DNA from: a virus
Direction: 5' to 3' (one strand)
Virus record (IMG/VR): IMGVR_UViG_3300023180_000051
Location: 1 to 64,000 of that record
Length of the DNA: 64,000 nucleotides
Numbering within the stretch: the stretch's first letter is position 1; every line of letters begins with the position of its first letter. A program made the translations under genes and the position numbers. Shown here piece after piece: positions 58,758 through 63,987 of this stretch. Below the pieces are notes generated by a model, which searched no databases, was not told the DNA's origin, and saw only the letters and a list, made by a program, of their open reading frames with translations.

Positions 58758-60554
58758 TTACTCTTTGTATGCAGTGAACGATGAATTAGCAACATCAACA
58801 TCAAGATATACCTCACGGAGTGCCTTGACATCATTAGACAATGGTTTTACCCTAACAGAAATTCTATTATCAAAGAAACTACCTTTGATAATAGTCAAAG
58901 CGTACATTTTTAATTCGCCTTTTTCATAATCAATATCACCAACTTCGCTGTCAAGAACAACTTTCTCGCCAGTTACGCTATCTAGTCTATATAGGACAAT
59001 TTTACCATCCCTATCTTCGAGATAAACATCAAAGTTAGGATACTCAGTAACCCTAAAACCAGTTGTAGAAAGGGTTGGTCCTTCGCAATCTTTATCAAAT
59101 GCATTTTGATAACAAATTTCATAATAGAAGGTAGAATTTAACTGAGGATAAAAATCTTTCCTCATTGTTATCTCAGTTAGGTTTGAATTTACAGAGACAT
59201 CAGAGTCATCAATTACACCAATAAATTTACTGTATCTGAACTTGCCATTAAACTTTTCAGTGTTTGAATTGTCCAAATATGACTGTACTGATCCTATTGC
59301 CATATCTCTAATTTGAGATGGAGTTTTATCTGTTTTATTTTTGTCATAGTAAATCTTACTAGACATCTCAATATAAAGTATGGAGGGATCGATAATTACT
59401 GGTTCGATAGACGCTACAACATATTTTTGTAACTCTTCTACAATTTGATTTTTTGTAAAAGAAGTTAGATAAGAAGCATCAGATGGTTTTAGTACAATAA
59501 AAACTTTTCCATATTCTGGTGGATCTTGATCCTCGCCACCAAAAATAATAATATCACTTACTGCTGGATATATCTTACGGACAATAGCACCATAGTCATC
59601 TGCTGTTACTGCTCTATCTTGTGCTCCATAAGATTTTGGAGCATTGAACTTAATCTTCTTGATAGATTCTACTTCCTCACCACCAGAAGAAGCAACCGTT
59701 GAGTTTATAGTAACTGTGTAGTTGTTTGGTGATACTCCTTCTGGATTTTCGAGAACACCAGAGAAAACAAATGTTTTCACTCCATTTGACTCTGGTCCAT
59801 TTGTTGTAATATACGAAATTTCAATTCGTGATCCGTTTTCTAGTTTTTTCCCTAAAATACCATCACCAAAAATAATTTCATATCTTTCATCTTCAATTTC
59901 ATCTAAGAAAAATATTTTTGATTCTGAATTAGCATCAAGAATATTATCGGAAACAGTGTAAGGTTCGCTAAAACTACCACCAGTAGGAAATACTTCTATT
60001 CGGATAGTGTTAGTATCAATGTTCTTGTTATCTAATATAAATCTTTGTGACTGTAACGAACTATTTACAGTAAATGTATTTGTTACAAATGTTCCTTCTC
60101 TTACAGGAATATTTTCAAATATTGCTTGATCATTTGATACCTGTGCTTTCACATTTTCAGTTACAACATATTGATATATTGAATTATCATATGAAGCAAT
60201 GAATCCTGTTCCTTTCTTCAGTGAAAGTTCAGTATCAGTTGTTGAGTTGCCATATGCAACTGCAAATGATACATATGCTGTCGGAGACGTGATCGACTTG
60301 GGTCTGTACCCTAATTGCTTCGCTAAGGCGACCACGTTGTCCCTGAGGGTGGCAGAATCAATGAATAGTTCATTGACTACCATATTAGTGTTAAACGCCG
60401 TATAATAAGTGTTGTAGGCGAGTGTGTCTATTAGAGTCGCTAATGCACTGCCCTCAAAGTCATAGTCAGTAAAATCTGACTGTGCTCTCATGTATTCTCT
60501 GAGAACAGCTTTGATATCAGCAAAGTCTAAATTGGCAACCTGAGTGTAAGGCAT
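58758..60554 (-). CDS. gp6: Baseplate wedge protein gp6
   Basis: A 598-aa protein (T4 gp6 is 660 aa) with the conserved N-terminus VANLDFADIKAVLREYMRAQ, YNTYYTAFNTNMVVNELFID and AKQLGYRPKSITSPTAYVSF, and a baseplate-J-like core at ~305-358 (FNAPKSYGAQDRAVTADDYG, then YPAVSDIIIFGG). gp6 dimers form the inner ring of the baseplate and bind gp25 and gp7. The start overlaps the gp25 stop by one base and the stop is 4 bases before the giant gp7-like gene, exactly as expected for coupled wedge synthesis. Confidence 0.96.
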   Translation of the reverse strand: MPYTQVANLDFADIKAVLREYMRAQSDFTDYDFEGSALATLIDTLAYNTYYTAFNTNMVVNELFIDSATLRDNVVALAKQLGYRPKSITSPTAYVSFAVAYGNSTTDTELSLKKGTGFIASYDNSIYQYVVTENVKAQVSNDQAIFENIPVREGTFVTNTFTVNSSLQSQRFILDNKNIDTNTIRIEVFPTGGSFSEPYTVSDNILDANSESKIFFLDEIEDERYEIIFGDGILGKKLENGSRIEISYITTNGPESNGVKTFVFSGVLENPEGVSPNNYTVTINSTVASSGGEEVESIKKIKFNAPKSYGAQDRAVTADDYGAIVRKIYPAVSDIIIFGGEDQDPPEYGKVFIVLKPSDASYLTSFTKNQIVEELQKYVVASIEPVIIDPSILYIEMSSKIYYDKNKTDKTPSQIRDMAIGSVQSYLDNSNTEKFNGKFRYSKFIGVIDDSDVSVNSNLTEITMRKDFYPQLNSTFYYEICYQNAFDKDCEGPTLSTTGFRVTEYPNFDVYLEDRDGKIVLYRLDSVTGEKVVLDSEVGDIDYEKGELKMYALTIIKGSFFDNRISVRVKPLSNDVKALREVYLDVDVANSSFTAYKE

Positions 60555-60946
60555 TATCGTGTACGCTCTAGAACGAATTCTACTGCTATTGTCTGATCAT
60601 CACGACCAATAATCTTATATTCCAACTCAACATTATATCCATTATTCACGGAGTCTGGAAATACACCAATATTTTGAACTACAATTCTTGGTTCATATCT
60701 TTTTAGTGTTGAGAGAATTTCTCCTCTAACAATACCAGCAGAACCAAAATCTAATGGTTCAAATAAAACTCGCTTGATATTAGATCCCAAATCAGGTTGA
60801 AATGGTCTTTCTCCTTTATTAGTAAGAAGTAAGGCAGTGATCGCTTGTGAAATCGCTGCCTTATCCTTAATAGTTACCAAGTCATCCGTAACTGGATGTT
60901 TCTTGAATGTAACACTCAGATCCTTAAATGTCTGAAAGGTAGGCAT
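60554..60946 (-). CDS. gp25: Baseplate wedge protein gp25
   Basis: A 130-aa protein of the gp25/lysozyme-like wedge family: GERPFQPDLGS (45-55), LFEPLD (61-66), RGEIL and the invariant EPR (85-87). T4 gp25 is 132 aa. It links the wedge to the sheath and starts sheath assembly; homologues occur in contractile injection systems. It is the first gene of the wedge unit and has a late promoter (60971-60978) 24 bases upstream. Confidence 0.97.
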   Translation of the reverse strand: MPTFQTFKDLSVTFKKHPVTDDLVTIKDKAAISQAITALLLTNKGERPFQPDLGSNIKRVLFEPLDFGSAGIVRGEILSTLKRYEPRIVVQNIGVFPDSVNNGYNVELEYKIIGRDDQTIAVEFVLERTR

Positions 60947-60970: not shown

Positions 60971-60978
60971 TATTTATC
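60971..60978 (-). promoter_or_regulatory. Late promoter GATAAATA for gp25-gp6-gp7
   Basis: GATAAATA on the minus strand, directly after the stop of the 71-aa gene (60979-60981). It marks the return to late structural genes after the sigma70-led small-gene cassette. Confidence 0.85.
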
Positions 60979-61194
60979 TCACTCGTGCCAACGCTCGACA
61001 TAATCATCAAATCCGCCCGCGCCTCCACAAGGGCGTTCTAGACGGTCTTCGGGAAGAGGGTATAGTTCTTCCTTCTTCTGTGCTCTACGCTTCCTTGCAG
61101 CGGCATCTAGAAGACGATCACTGTCTGTTTCGGTGATCAGTGTCATACCTTCTTGTACAAACTCTTCACTTTTGTCTACAGGAAATAGTCCCAT
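60979..61194 (-). CDS. Small hypothetical protein, 71 aa
   Basis: Starts MGLFPVDKSEEFVQEGMTLI, with a basic helix (DAAARKRRAQKKEELYPLPE) and an end GGAGGFDDYVERWHE. A good GGAG lies about 7 bases before the ATG. It has no structural-protein character. It follows the 167-aa gene after 66 bases and may belong to the same sigma70-led cassette. Function unknown. Confidence 0.78.
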   Translation of the reverse strand: MGLFPVDKSEEFVQEGMTLITETDSDRLLDAAARKRRAQKKEELYPLPEDRLERPCGGAGGFDDYVERWHE

Positions 61195-61260
61195 TGGTTT
61201 TCTCCGTTAGAAAGTTTTATTAGAACTTTTTACGGGGTTACTATCCCTCTCGCTCGGCGC

Positions 61261-61764
61261 TTAGGTCCAATGATTATTTGGTCTCTCCCACCAGAAATGT
61301 AAATCTTCACCATTGTCATCATAATACAATGAGACCAGATCACTCTTATATTTACTATGAATATTCTCACATAGAGATAAAGTGTAGTAATTCTTCTCGG
61401 AGAACTTTTCCATACTCTGAGTAATCCAAGTATAGTTCCCACCTCTGATAACACCTGCCTCACAAAGTACAAAGTTATCCCAATCCAATACCCATTCCGC
61501 AAAATTCAACTCAAAGTTAATCATGTACTCGGAAGGGTTTTCATCAGGAAATGGCACATTGACTGCCTCTATATGAAAAATCTCCCGATCCATTGATAAT
61601 GAATGCGAGAGATGTTGTGTAACAATACTAGAGTAATCAGGAGAAACACACAAAAAACATGTCTTGCTGGGGTGAATATCCCAACCTGACATTTGAATTT
61701 TGTATGACATCTCCTGAATGAGTGCCATCTCTTTATCCTGTGAGATGAACAGTAAATCTTTCAT
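61261..61764 (-). CDS. Hypothetical protein, possibly phosphoribosyltransferase-like, 167 aa
   Basis: Starts MKDLLFISQDKEMALIQEMS and is a mixed alpha/beta globular protein, unlike the beta-rich virion proteins around it. Segment NFVLCEAGVIRGGNYTWI (about 107-124) is laid out like the PRPP loop of type I phosphoribosyltransferases (hydrophobic strand, acidic residue, Gly-rich turn), but only one acidic residue is kept, so catalysis is doubtful. The start overlaps the 48-aa stop by one base (TAATG). The assignment is tentative; an accessory enzyme or regulator expressed early from the sigma70-like promoter upstream is the best reading. Confidence 0.8.
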   Translation of the reverse strand: MKDLLFISQDKEMALIQEMSYKIQMSGWDIHPSKTCFLCVSPDYSSIVTQHLSHSLSMDREIFHIEAVNVPFPDENPSEYMINFELNFAEWVLDWDNFVLCEAGVIRGGNYTWITQSMEKFSEKNYYTLSLCENIHSKYKSDLVSLYYDDNGEDLHFWWERPNNHWT

Positions 61765-61910
61765 TACTTGCCTTGACCGCGATATTTTTTACGTGCCTTA
61801 TTACGAGAGGTAGCAGCATACTTTGTATTCTTGCTCTTGCCCTGACGAGTACACTTAGGAGTGGACTCAATCATTTGCTGACCACTTAGACCAATTTTAC
61901 TTCGTGCCAT
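61764..61910 (-). CDS. Small highly basic protein, 48 aa
   Basis: ATG at 61910-61908, stop TAA at 61764-61766. It starts MARSKIGLSGQQMIESTP and ends NKARKKYRGQGK, with about a quarter Lys/Arg, suggesting nucleic-acid or ribosome binding. Small proteins of this pattern occur near gp25 in cyanomyoviruses. A ribosome-binding GGA lies ~9 bases before the ATG, and the sigma70-like promoter (61934-61962) is just upstream. Its stop overlaps the 167-aa start. The function is unknown. Confidence 0.85.
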   Translation of the reverse strand: MARSKIGLSGQQMIESTPKCTRQGKSKNTKYAATSRNKARKKYRGQGK

Positions 61911-61933
61911 ATGTTTTCCAAAAAGACTTTATT

Positions 61934-61962
61934 AGTATACCACAAAAACTAATCTTTGACAA
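61934..61962 (-). promoter_or_regulatory. Sigma70-type promoter TTGTCA-17-TATACT
   Basis: On the minus strand the -35 is TTGTCA (61962-61957), the spacer is exactly 17 bases and the -10 is TATACT (61939-61934). Each box differs from consensus by one base. The -35 lies inside the end of the PAAR gene. The expected start is near 61927, giving a ~17-base leader before the 48-aa ATG. It differs from all other promoters seen in the window. Confidence 0.7.
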
Positions 61963-62269
61963 TCACAGTAGTCGCTGCTGGACCTGCGATAAATGCTCCA
62001 GTTGTCTTTGCTCCCACAGGTGCCAGGAGTCTGCCCTCGCAAATCACAGTAGGATATGCACCTTCAATAACAATATCAACATCACATACAGGTGGTACTG
62101 TGCCAGGTATACAATGAATATCAGATGTGTCTCCTACTCGATGCACAGGAAGACCATTCATATACACAGTAGCGGAATGACCTACTCCAGGTGTATTGTA
62201 AAATGGTGGTAAGAATGGGAAGTGGGTTGGGTAAGGTACTGGTACATGTAAAGCGACGGGTTTAGCCAT
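61949..62269 (-). CDS. PAAR-domain tail-tip protein (gp5.4-like)
   Basis: A 106-aa protein with the PAAR signature GHSATVYMNGLPVHRVGD (30-47), then HCIPGTVPPVCDV (52-64) and VICEGRLLAPVGAKTTG. PAAR proteins cap the spike at the tail tip and sharpen it for membrane penetration; T4 gp5.4 is 97 aa. Conserved His, Cys and Pro residues that bind the tip metal in this family are visible (His30-31 region, His52, Cys53). The start overlaps the 449-aa stop by 8 bases. Confidence 0.93.
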   Translation of the reverse strand: MAKPVALHVPVPYPTHFPFLPPFYNTPGVGHSATVYMNGLPVHRVGDTSDIHCIPGTVPPVCDVDIVIEGAYPTVICEGRLLAPVGAKTTGAFIAGPAATTVIVKD

Positions 62270-63611
62270 TTTCTTGAACAGATGCTGATTTATTGATGTA
62301 AGTATTTAATATATCTCCCAAGTATATTGGATTATACCTTACTGGCATATAGAAATACCAAATATTTGAAAGTAATTCTGAACTATATTGTTCTAGTCCC
62401 AAATCAAGAAGATTCTCAAGTTCTTCCTCTTCTTCAAATCCATACTCTAATTCATCATCAGGTATAATAATTGTCTGACATGCTACTTTGAATGTTATAA
62501 CAATTGTATCTAACTCTGATACTCTTGTATCATATATCAAACCTGCTTCATATTCTGTATATGGTTGACCTTCTGCATCTAATGCTGGTGAATTACTAGT
62601 AAATTCATCCCATATAGGACAAAAGGAATCTCCACCTTCTGATATCTTCAAATAATCCTTAAATGAATATGCATCTGGTTTATAGAGTTTGCCATTACGT
62701 TCTAATAACTTCCATCCATACACAGCATCTGGTCTACCATCACTTGTCTCCAATGCAGGTTGACCTTGATCTGGTACAATATCTAAACCTTTCTTTACCC
62801 ATACACCATCACTTCTGACTCTAAAAATCTCAGCATACCGATCTGCATCATATCCATTCTGTAATAGATCAATCTCTTCTTCTGGTGTTGTTGCATTCGC
62901 AAAGTAATAATTCCTTGCTACTGTATCATATTGTACTTGACCAAACTTCGTTCCATTGATTATAATCATCTCATGATCATAAAATGAAAAATCTGTTATC
63001 TTTCCACTGACTTGACATAATCCTAACATACCATTGAGAACAAATGGACTTGCTAAAAGGTCTGGTAAGTATTGACTTGAATTGTTCTCTATTACAATTC
63101 CAGGATCCATTGTATCGGCTTCTTTAGGATCGTCATATAACCCAACTGGTGTACTGCCTTCATACAATTCATTATAATATGAACTACTATACTTCTTATA
63201 ATATAAGTTCCTCCTCTCAGTATGAAATGCATCATCTGGAACAGGTCCTAAGATTGCTTGCACACTCTGATCATCTACAAAAAATGATCCCCTATCCCAT
63301 ACATTGATATGAGTTACCTCTACTTGCATATCAATGATCTTCTCCCTTCCACCAAATGTACCACCTCCTATCATCCAGATATCAGTGCCTCCCATCTCCT
63401 CCCATTGCATCCAGGGAGGTGTATCCGTAGTTAGCGAAGGTGAATAGATATCTAACTCATCCGCAGTGTTCTTCGGATAAAATCTCCCGTAATAATTTGG
63501 TACGTCTGGGTTTTCTCGTAATAATTTTGCAACAGCAGATCCATCTGCTGGTGGAATAAATCCAATCCCTCCTACCGTATTTGCAAATATATTAAGTACT
63601 GGTACTGGCAT
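62262..63611 (-). CDS. Probable baseplate or virion structural protein, 449 aa
   Basis: Starts MPVPVLNIFANTVGGIGFIP. It is rich in Tyr, Asp and Gly throughout, with a strongly acidic stretch DDELEYGFEEEEELENL (~385-401) and an aromatic end SNIWYFYMPVRYNPIYLGDI. There is no signal peptide or membrane segment. It sits next to the PAAR gene and before the wedge genes, which points to a tail-tip or hub-associated role, but no T4 counterpart can be named from sequence. The start overlaps the 72-aa stop by 20 bases. Confidence 0.82.
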   Translation of the reverse strand: MPVPVLNIFANTVGGIGFIPPADGSAVAKLLRENPDVPNYYGRFYPKNTADELDIYSPSLTTDTPPWMQWEEMGGTDIWMIGGGTFGGREKIIDMQVEVTHINVWDRGSFFVDDQSVQAILGPVPDDAFHTERRNLYYKKYSSSYYNELYEGSTPVGLYDDPKEADTMDPGIVIENNSSQYLPDLLASPFVLNGMLGLCQVSGKITDFSFYDHEMIIINGTKFGQVQYDTVARNYYFANATTPEEEIDLLQNGYDADRYAEIFRVRSDGVWVKKGLDIVPDQGQPALETSDGRPDAVYGWKLLERNGKLYKPDAYSFKDYLKISEGGDSFCPIWDEFTSNSPALDAEGQPYTEYEAGLIYDTRVSELDTIVITFKVACQTIIIPDDELEYGFEEEEELENLLDLGLEQYSSELLSNIWYFYMPVRYNPIYLGDILNTYINKSASVQENG

Positions 63612-63979: not shown

Positions 63980-63987
63980 TATTTATC
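63980..63987 (-). promoter_or_regulatory. Late promoter GATAAATA
   Basis: GATAAATATATTT on the minus strand at the head of the late unit. It is the most upstream promoter in the window, so transcripts could begin here and read through many genes. Confidence 0.8.

Follow-up and report, generated by a model that had tools for sequence, protein, structure and literature searches.

We asked why a host-type promoter should sit among the late structural genes of a T4-like cyanophage, whether it opens a transcription unit of its own, and what the small genes behind it might do. The stretch that we analysed (64,000 nt, hereafter the window) comes from a 65.3-kb virus record of a T4-like cyanophage (Kyanoviridae), and by a wide margin it matches Synechococcus phage S-RSM4, also of the Kyanoviridae, best. 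Minus-strand late structural genes fill nearly the whole window, and around 61.9 kb the order along that strand is PAAR, promoter, p48, p167, p71, GATAAATA, gene 25 (g25) and gene 6 (g6), with the following features:

61949..62269, minus strand: PAAR-motif spike-tip protein (Pfam PF05488, E 1.4e-4, below the curated cutoff; PHROG 281; PAAR annotated at the S-RSM4 counterpart)
61957..61962, minus strand: -35 hexamer TTGTCA, within the last PAAR codons
61934..61942, minus strand: extended -10, TGG plus TATACT (hexamer 61934-61939), its position kept in relatives
61764..61910, minus strand: p48, a basic 48-aa protein and leader gene of the unit (PHROG 516, phrog_516, E 5e-26; T4-GC 394)
61261..61764, minus strand: p167, an acidic protein and cargo gene (phrog_29004; predicted type I phosphoribosyltransferase (PRTase) fold)
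60979..61194, minus strand: p71, a small acidic protein (phrog_12480/1414; 55 phage records; mostly beside g25 by synteny)
60971..60978, minus strand: GATAAATA, a T4-type late promoter box 31 nt ahead of the g25 ATG (60946)
60554..60946, minus strand: gene 25, baseplate wedge subunit (Pfam PF04965, E 5.5e-13)
58758..60554, minus strand: gene 6, baseplate wedge subunit and downstream late gene (matches the annotated g6 of S-RSM4)

The original prediction, made from the letters of this DNA, had the promoter lead the 48-, 167- and 71-aa genes until the GATAAATA box restarts structural genes, and we find the coordinates, the gene order and the placement of that box as described, together with a TAATG overlap of p48 and p167 at position 61764 that is a real translational coupling arrangement. 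All three are real genes given their low dN/dS against the S-RSM4 orthologues (~0.05 for p167, 0.06 for p71 and 0.23 for p48).

Evaluating the promoter itself, we recovered the near-consensus TTGTCA-17-TATACT at minus-strand positions 61962-61934, with 10 of 12 consensus matches plus a TG extension, as TGG directly precedes the -10 within the 17-nt spacer, and with an expected start near 61927. The site had been placed inside the end of the PAAR gene, which is right for the -35 but not for the -10, as the PAAR frame ends at a stop codon at 61949-61951 and leaves the latter intergenic. The exact pattern with 16-18 nt spacing occurs once in the window and turned up in 6 of 100 dinucleotide-shuffled windows; under an E. 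coli-like weight matrix, entered by hand and possibly ill-fitted to the cyanobacterial polymerase, the site is the top scorer of the coding strand (14.9, followed by 13.3), with a higher-scoring site on the non-coding strand (17.2 at ~1546). Because of the shuffled matches and that better non-coding-strand site, the window site is unconvincing by itself. Its surroundings hold no terminator between PAAR and p48, no GC stem of at least 5 bp at the promoter and no Rfam match across the region.

What carries the site well above chance is the conservation of its position in relatives. We gathered relatives from viral contigs, 80 loci through p167 and 80 through p48, yielding 110 distinct upstream regions that are related to each other, such that the counts below are not independent events. 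A sigma70-type site, counting the extended -10 form, lies within 60 nt upstream of p48 in 50 of the 110, and with a minimum score of 14 we observed 32 sites in the ~60 nt before p48, where the remainder of these loci would predict 0.64 (43 versus 2 when the threshold is 12). A further 39 loci carry an inserted gene of ~250 aa (phrog_1574), often accompanied by a 55-aa gene, ahead of p48. In 30 of them a strong site lies no more than 70 nt before phrog_1574, where the null rate is 1.2%. The remaining loci without a site are mostly truncated upstream; ~5 with adequate upstream sequence lack a clear one. The phrog_1574 gene itself (L121:2329-3108, L129 and ~37 further loci) begins MAKGFTVKA, shows weak similarity to a glycosyltransferase family and often stands between the PAAR region and p48 together with a strong TTGACA-17-TAWAAT promoter of its own.

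The same position is occupied by varying sequences, namely TTGACA-17-TACAAT within the upstream gene, intergenic TTGACA-17-TATACT or TATGCT, and TGNTATAAT with a weak -35, while TATGCTATAATA stands ahead of p48 in all three isolates S-RSM4, S-PM2 and Syn1. In 16 loci TTGACA-17-TACAAT falls within the final coding stretch of the gene upstream of p48, and third codon positions there are invariant at 4 of 4 sites inside the hexamers versus 2 of 12 outside (hypergeometric p = 0.008). Since third positions in the hexamers never vary while 10 of the 12 around them do, the DNA itself appears to be conserved at the overlap, a result that is supportive rather than independent proof because the 16 loci are related. 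In four loci (L018, L063, L070 and L086; 4/35 observed versus 0.36 expected) a perfect GC stem, for example AGGCCC-TTGACA-GGGCCT-TTT, holds the -35 TTGACA in its loop and forms a composite promoter-terminator.

To place this promoter within a class, we compared it with the complete S-RSM4 genome. On the main strand there, strong or extended -10 sites precede g32, g46, g55, g61, cobS, petF, hli, p48 and others but none of the 34 structural genes, 11 of which have ATAAATA in front. In the window, 13 of 14 ATAAATA boxes are on the minus strand, many directly upstream of structural genes, including one upstream of the unit at 63980-63986; we saw none ahead of p48 in the window or at that position in S-RSM4 and S-PM2. 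Cyanomyoviruses, as reviewed, use the unmodified host polymerase early and the published late motif NATAAATA late, and they lack alt/modA/modB and motA/asiA (PMC2984593). The same review gives sigma70 motifs ahead of early-gene homologues in S-PM2 and Syn9, and cites unpublished data in which early sigma70 motifs were not found in S-RSM4 (PMC2984593). The p48 gene is not given in main-text passages of the P-HM2 and S-PM2 papers. From the S-RSM4 promoter class and the early/late polymerase scheme of the review, we infer early or middle expression of the p48 unit.

Considering the conserved position and the promoter class jointly, we judge it likely that the window site is a genuine sigma70-type promoter opening a conserved early or middle transcription unit with a cargo slot, which bears out the proposal of a host-type promoter at the head of a non-structural unit. 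The picture of an early island within a late operon is likely too, its promoter being conserved and of the early/middle class, but the unit does not lie deep in the late block, as a run of small hypothetical genes starts only ~2 genes upstream of it in S-RSM4 and S-CAM1, and such genes stand directly upstream of it in S-PM2. As we envision it, unmodified host RNA polymerase would read the promoter early or mid infection, giving a transcript that starts with the small, virus-only, cationic and probably nucleic-acid-binding p48, continues through a variable cargo slot (p167 with its predicted PRTase fold in the window) and includes p71; the appearance of the gp55 late sigma factor would then let the GATAAATA box turn on g25, g6 and subsequent baseplate genes. 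With no terminator between PAAR and p48, read-through from upstream late promoters probably adds late transcription of the p48 unit in the window.

Extending that read-through, the unit may be expressed throughout infection, from the sigma70 promoter early and from upstream late promoters thereafter, a mode also put forward for RB49 and cyanophage psbA. We regard this as a plausible reading with a somewhat less than even prospect; it is a variant of our best explanation, and the likelihoods that we give to the two overlap. Overlapping early and late promoters are a likely substitute for the middle mode in S-PM2 and Syn9 (PMC2984593), a passage of PMC5931967 describes sigma70 elements and a gp55 site in the psbA region of S-PM2d, and the window shows no terminator that would insulate the unit. 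Against it, no late box stands directly ahead of p48, and the GC stem with the -35 in its loop could both terminate transcription and insulate the unit in L018, L070 and L086.

The leader gene of the unit encodes a strongly basic protein (pI 11.2, charge +12.5) found in 443 phage records, all of them cyanophage or marine virus, with invariant positions PK..T.QG, SRN, K and RGQG; its counterparts are S-PM2p079 in S-PM2 and gp96 in Syn9. It is modelled as disordered with one short helix at low confidence (pLDDT 57), and searches of Pfam, NCBIfam and PDB sequences (the latter at E<=10) gave no match. The gene is unannotated in S-CAM1 (L193) and Syn1 (L165), and in Syn1 an ORF in a different frame overlaps it. 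A host origin for p48 was considered and rejected: its 17 matches in genome collections all come from MAG bins of marine or aquatic origin that span diverse organisms but no cyanobacteria, and none are on plasmids. Mistaken binning of cyanophage contigs is probably their simplest explanation. Loci L167-L183 are such probable cyanophage contigs, assigned to MAGs of bacteria and archaea (Flavobacteriales, Euryarchaeota, Woesearchaeota and others). A nucleic acid or ribonucleoprotein ligand for p48 is a natural guess and nothing firmer. More speculatively still, p48 might be a very widespread early protein of T4-like cyanophages, a disordered cationic peptide (PK-x-T-x-QG...SRN...RGQG; no host homologue found) whose target is the RNA polymerase, the ribosomes or the nucleoid of the host, such that selection for the host-type promoter acts on p48 while the slot behind it has come to receive incoming cargo, among it a PRTase-fold protein retooled for a new function; as a whole, we hold this joint reading only tentatively.

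Between p48 and g25, both p48 and p71 adjoining g25 in nearly all relatives, the contents vary. Relatives carry p167, speD, 2-oxoglutarate (2OG-Fe(II)) oxygenases, a 2Fe-2S ferredoxin, phrog_3577, phrog_3704 and others in this slot, mostly followed by p71, meaning that genes without homology replace one another at a single syntenic site flanked by core genes. Adjacency of p48 and p167 is frequent in the S-RSM4-like clade; in S-SSM7, a p167 that is 68% identical lies beside psbA and tRNAs, and we detected no p48 in that phage. Given the varying slot contents and a p167 without p48 in S-SSM7, the comparison of gene neighbourhoods points to p167 as cargo rather than an obligate partner of p48. 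Among the other occupants, speD (AdoMet decarboxylase) takes the slot in 14 loci (L116:2275-2598 and relatives), and the S-RSM4 speD is in the replication cluster. Members of phrog_3704 bear the labels 'ferredoxin' or 'PurM', which are doubtful given that these proteins have no Pfam match.

For p167, an AlphaFold model of high confidence (pLDDT 89, pTM 0.85) has 6-oxopurine (xanthine/guanine/hypoxanthine) PRTases as its best Foldseek matches in the PDB (probability 1.0, E 1.1e-6, TM 0.6-0.7), and there is a weak profile match to 7kl6 (E 0.024). Standard type I PRTases carry a PRPP loop of the form E/D-D/E-x-x-D-T/S-G and a pyrophosphate loop of RGG or KGG. The p167 loop after the fourth strand (E97-102) instead reads E102-A-G-V-I106-R-G-G-N, with a nearly invariant Ile at the position of the catalytic Asp and EAGVIRGGN conserved at >=90% for most positions, whereas the loop after the second strand (E35-40), at the pyrophosphate-loop position, is an invariant S-P-D-Y-S. 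We found neither the PRPP motif E/D-D-x-x-D-T/S-G nor a Pfam or NCBIfam PRTase match in p167. We thus read p167 as a predicted PRTase-fold protein with remodelled active-site loops that is probably not a standard PRTase, and because the catalytic Asp and the pyrophosphate-loop signature are replaced, changed chemistry or a role in nucleotide binding or sensing appears likelier than standard catalysis. That p167 might be an active 6-oxopurine PRTase salvaging bases from degraded host DNA would suit its top Foldseek matches (HGXPRT/XGPRT) and a purine-hood-like WWERP near the C-terminus that aligns to 7kl6, but the same two loop replacements make this unlikely.

Setting aside what the proteins do, p48, p167 and p71 could simply be late like their neighbours, transcribed mainly by upstream read-through, with the sigma70-like site incidental or minor. 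The single strand shared by all genes, the unterminated junction of PAAR and p48, the upstream box at 63980-63986 and the persistence of p48 and p71 beside g25 would fit, yet a promoter placement kept far more often than chance would allow, together with frozen synonymous sites, and the lack of ATAAATA before p48 in the window, S-RSM4 and S-PM2, render this improbable. Least credible is the original suggestion that p48 and p167 form a dedicated two-protein complex for host takeover or regulation, for which the TAATG coupling, the opposite charges (+12.5 and -14.9) and the clade-level adjacency speak, and which we consider very improbable given unrelated genes after p48 in many lineages, the S-SSM7 arrangement and a predicted PRTase fold better suited to metabolic cargo.

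Returning to the preferred reading of a conserved early or middle unit, we compared it with known systems. The sigma70 early promoters of S-PM2 and Syn9 likewise place host-type -35 and -10 elements before non-structural genes, the same class as before S-RSM4 g32, g46, g55 and g61, whereas the p48 site lies between baseplate genes rather than in the replication cluster and, in some lineages, inside the coding end of a structural-type gene. The early gene repEA of T4 oriE, inside late gene 5, is similarly a small early gene in a late baseplate cluster, but it is on the strand opposite gene 5 whereas the p48 unit shares the strand of the late genes; homology was therefore rejected and the likeness kept as analogy only. 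Type I 6-oxopurine PRTases (7kl6, 1vdm, 5bqp) resemble p167 in predicted fold and C-terminal hood but differ in having the catalytic Asp and the PRPP and PPi loop signatures. Mobile regulatory PeSL cassettes have reportedly been described in T4-type phages by Arbiol in 2010 and Comeau in 2014. They resemble our locus in an early promoter at a gene-shuffling site and in the stem-loop composite of L018, L063, L070 and L086; as far as their titles and one mention (in a passage of PMC4503421) convey, they differ in that the window site has no stem-loop and that its promoter goes with the conserved leader gene p48. Variable cargo, metabolic genes included, also lies among core genes in cyanophage auxiliary-metabolic-gene hotspots and in the S-PM2 'ORFanage' (PMC3037559, PMC4503421), whereas the p48-g25 slot is defined and has its own conserved promoter. 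Early promoter and cargo slot are of known kinds, here in a conserved arrangement around the very widespread p48; we found no description of this arrangement, or of a slot with its own promoter, in the literature searched.

This arrangement makes an anonymous ORF present in 443 records a testable early-protein candidate, and its layout of promoter, leader and slot suggests how metabolic cargo in a late block can be expressed early. With p167 it also offers a clear example of a purine-enzyme fold whose active site has been remodelled and which escapes standard family searches. Elsewhere in the window, the 449-aa protein upstream of PAAR (62262-63611) has no PHROG match, unlike its neighbours. 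On the plus strand, no obvious gene lies behind two strong sigma70-like sites at ~1546 and 62961, TTGACA-17-TATAAT and TTGACC-18-TATAAT, both of which point antisense into structural genes.
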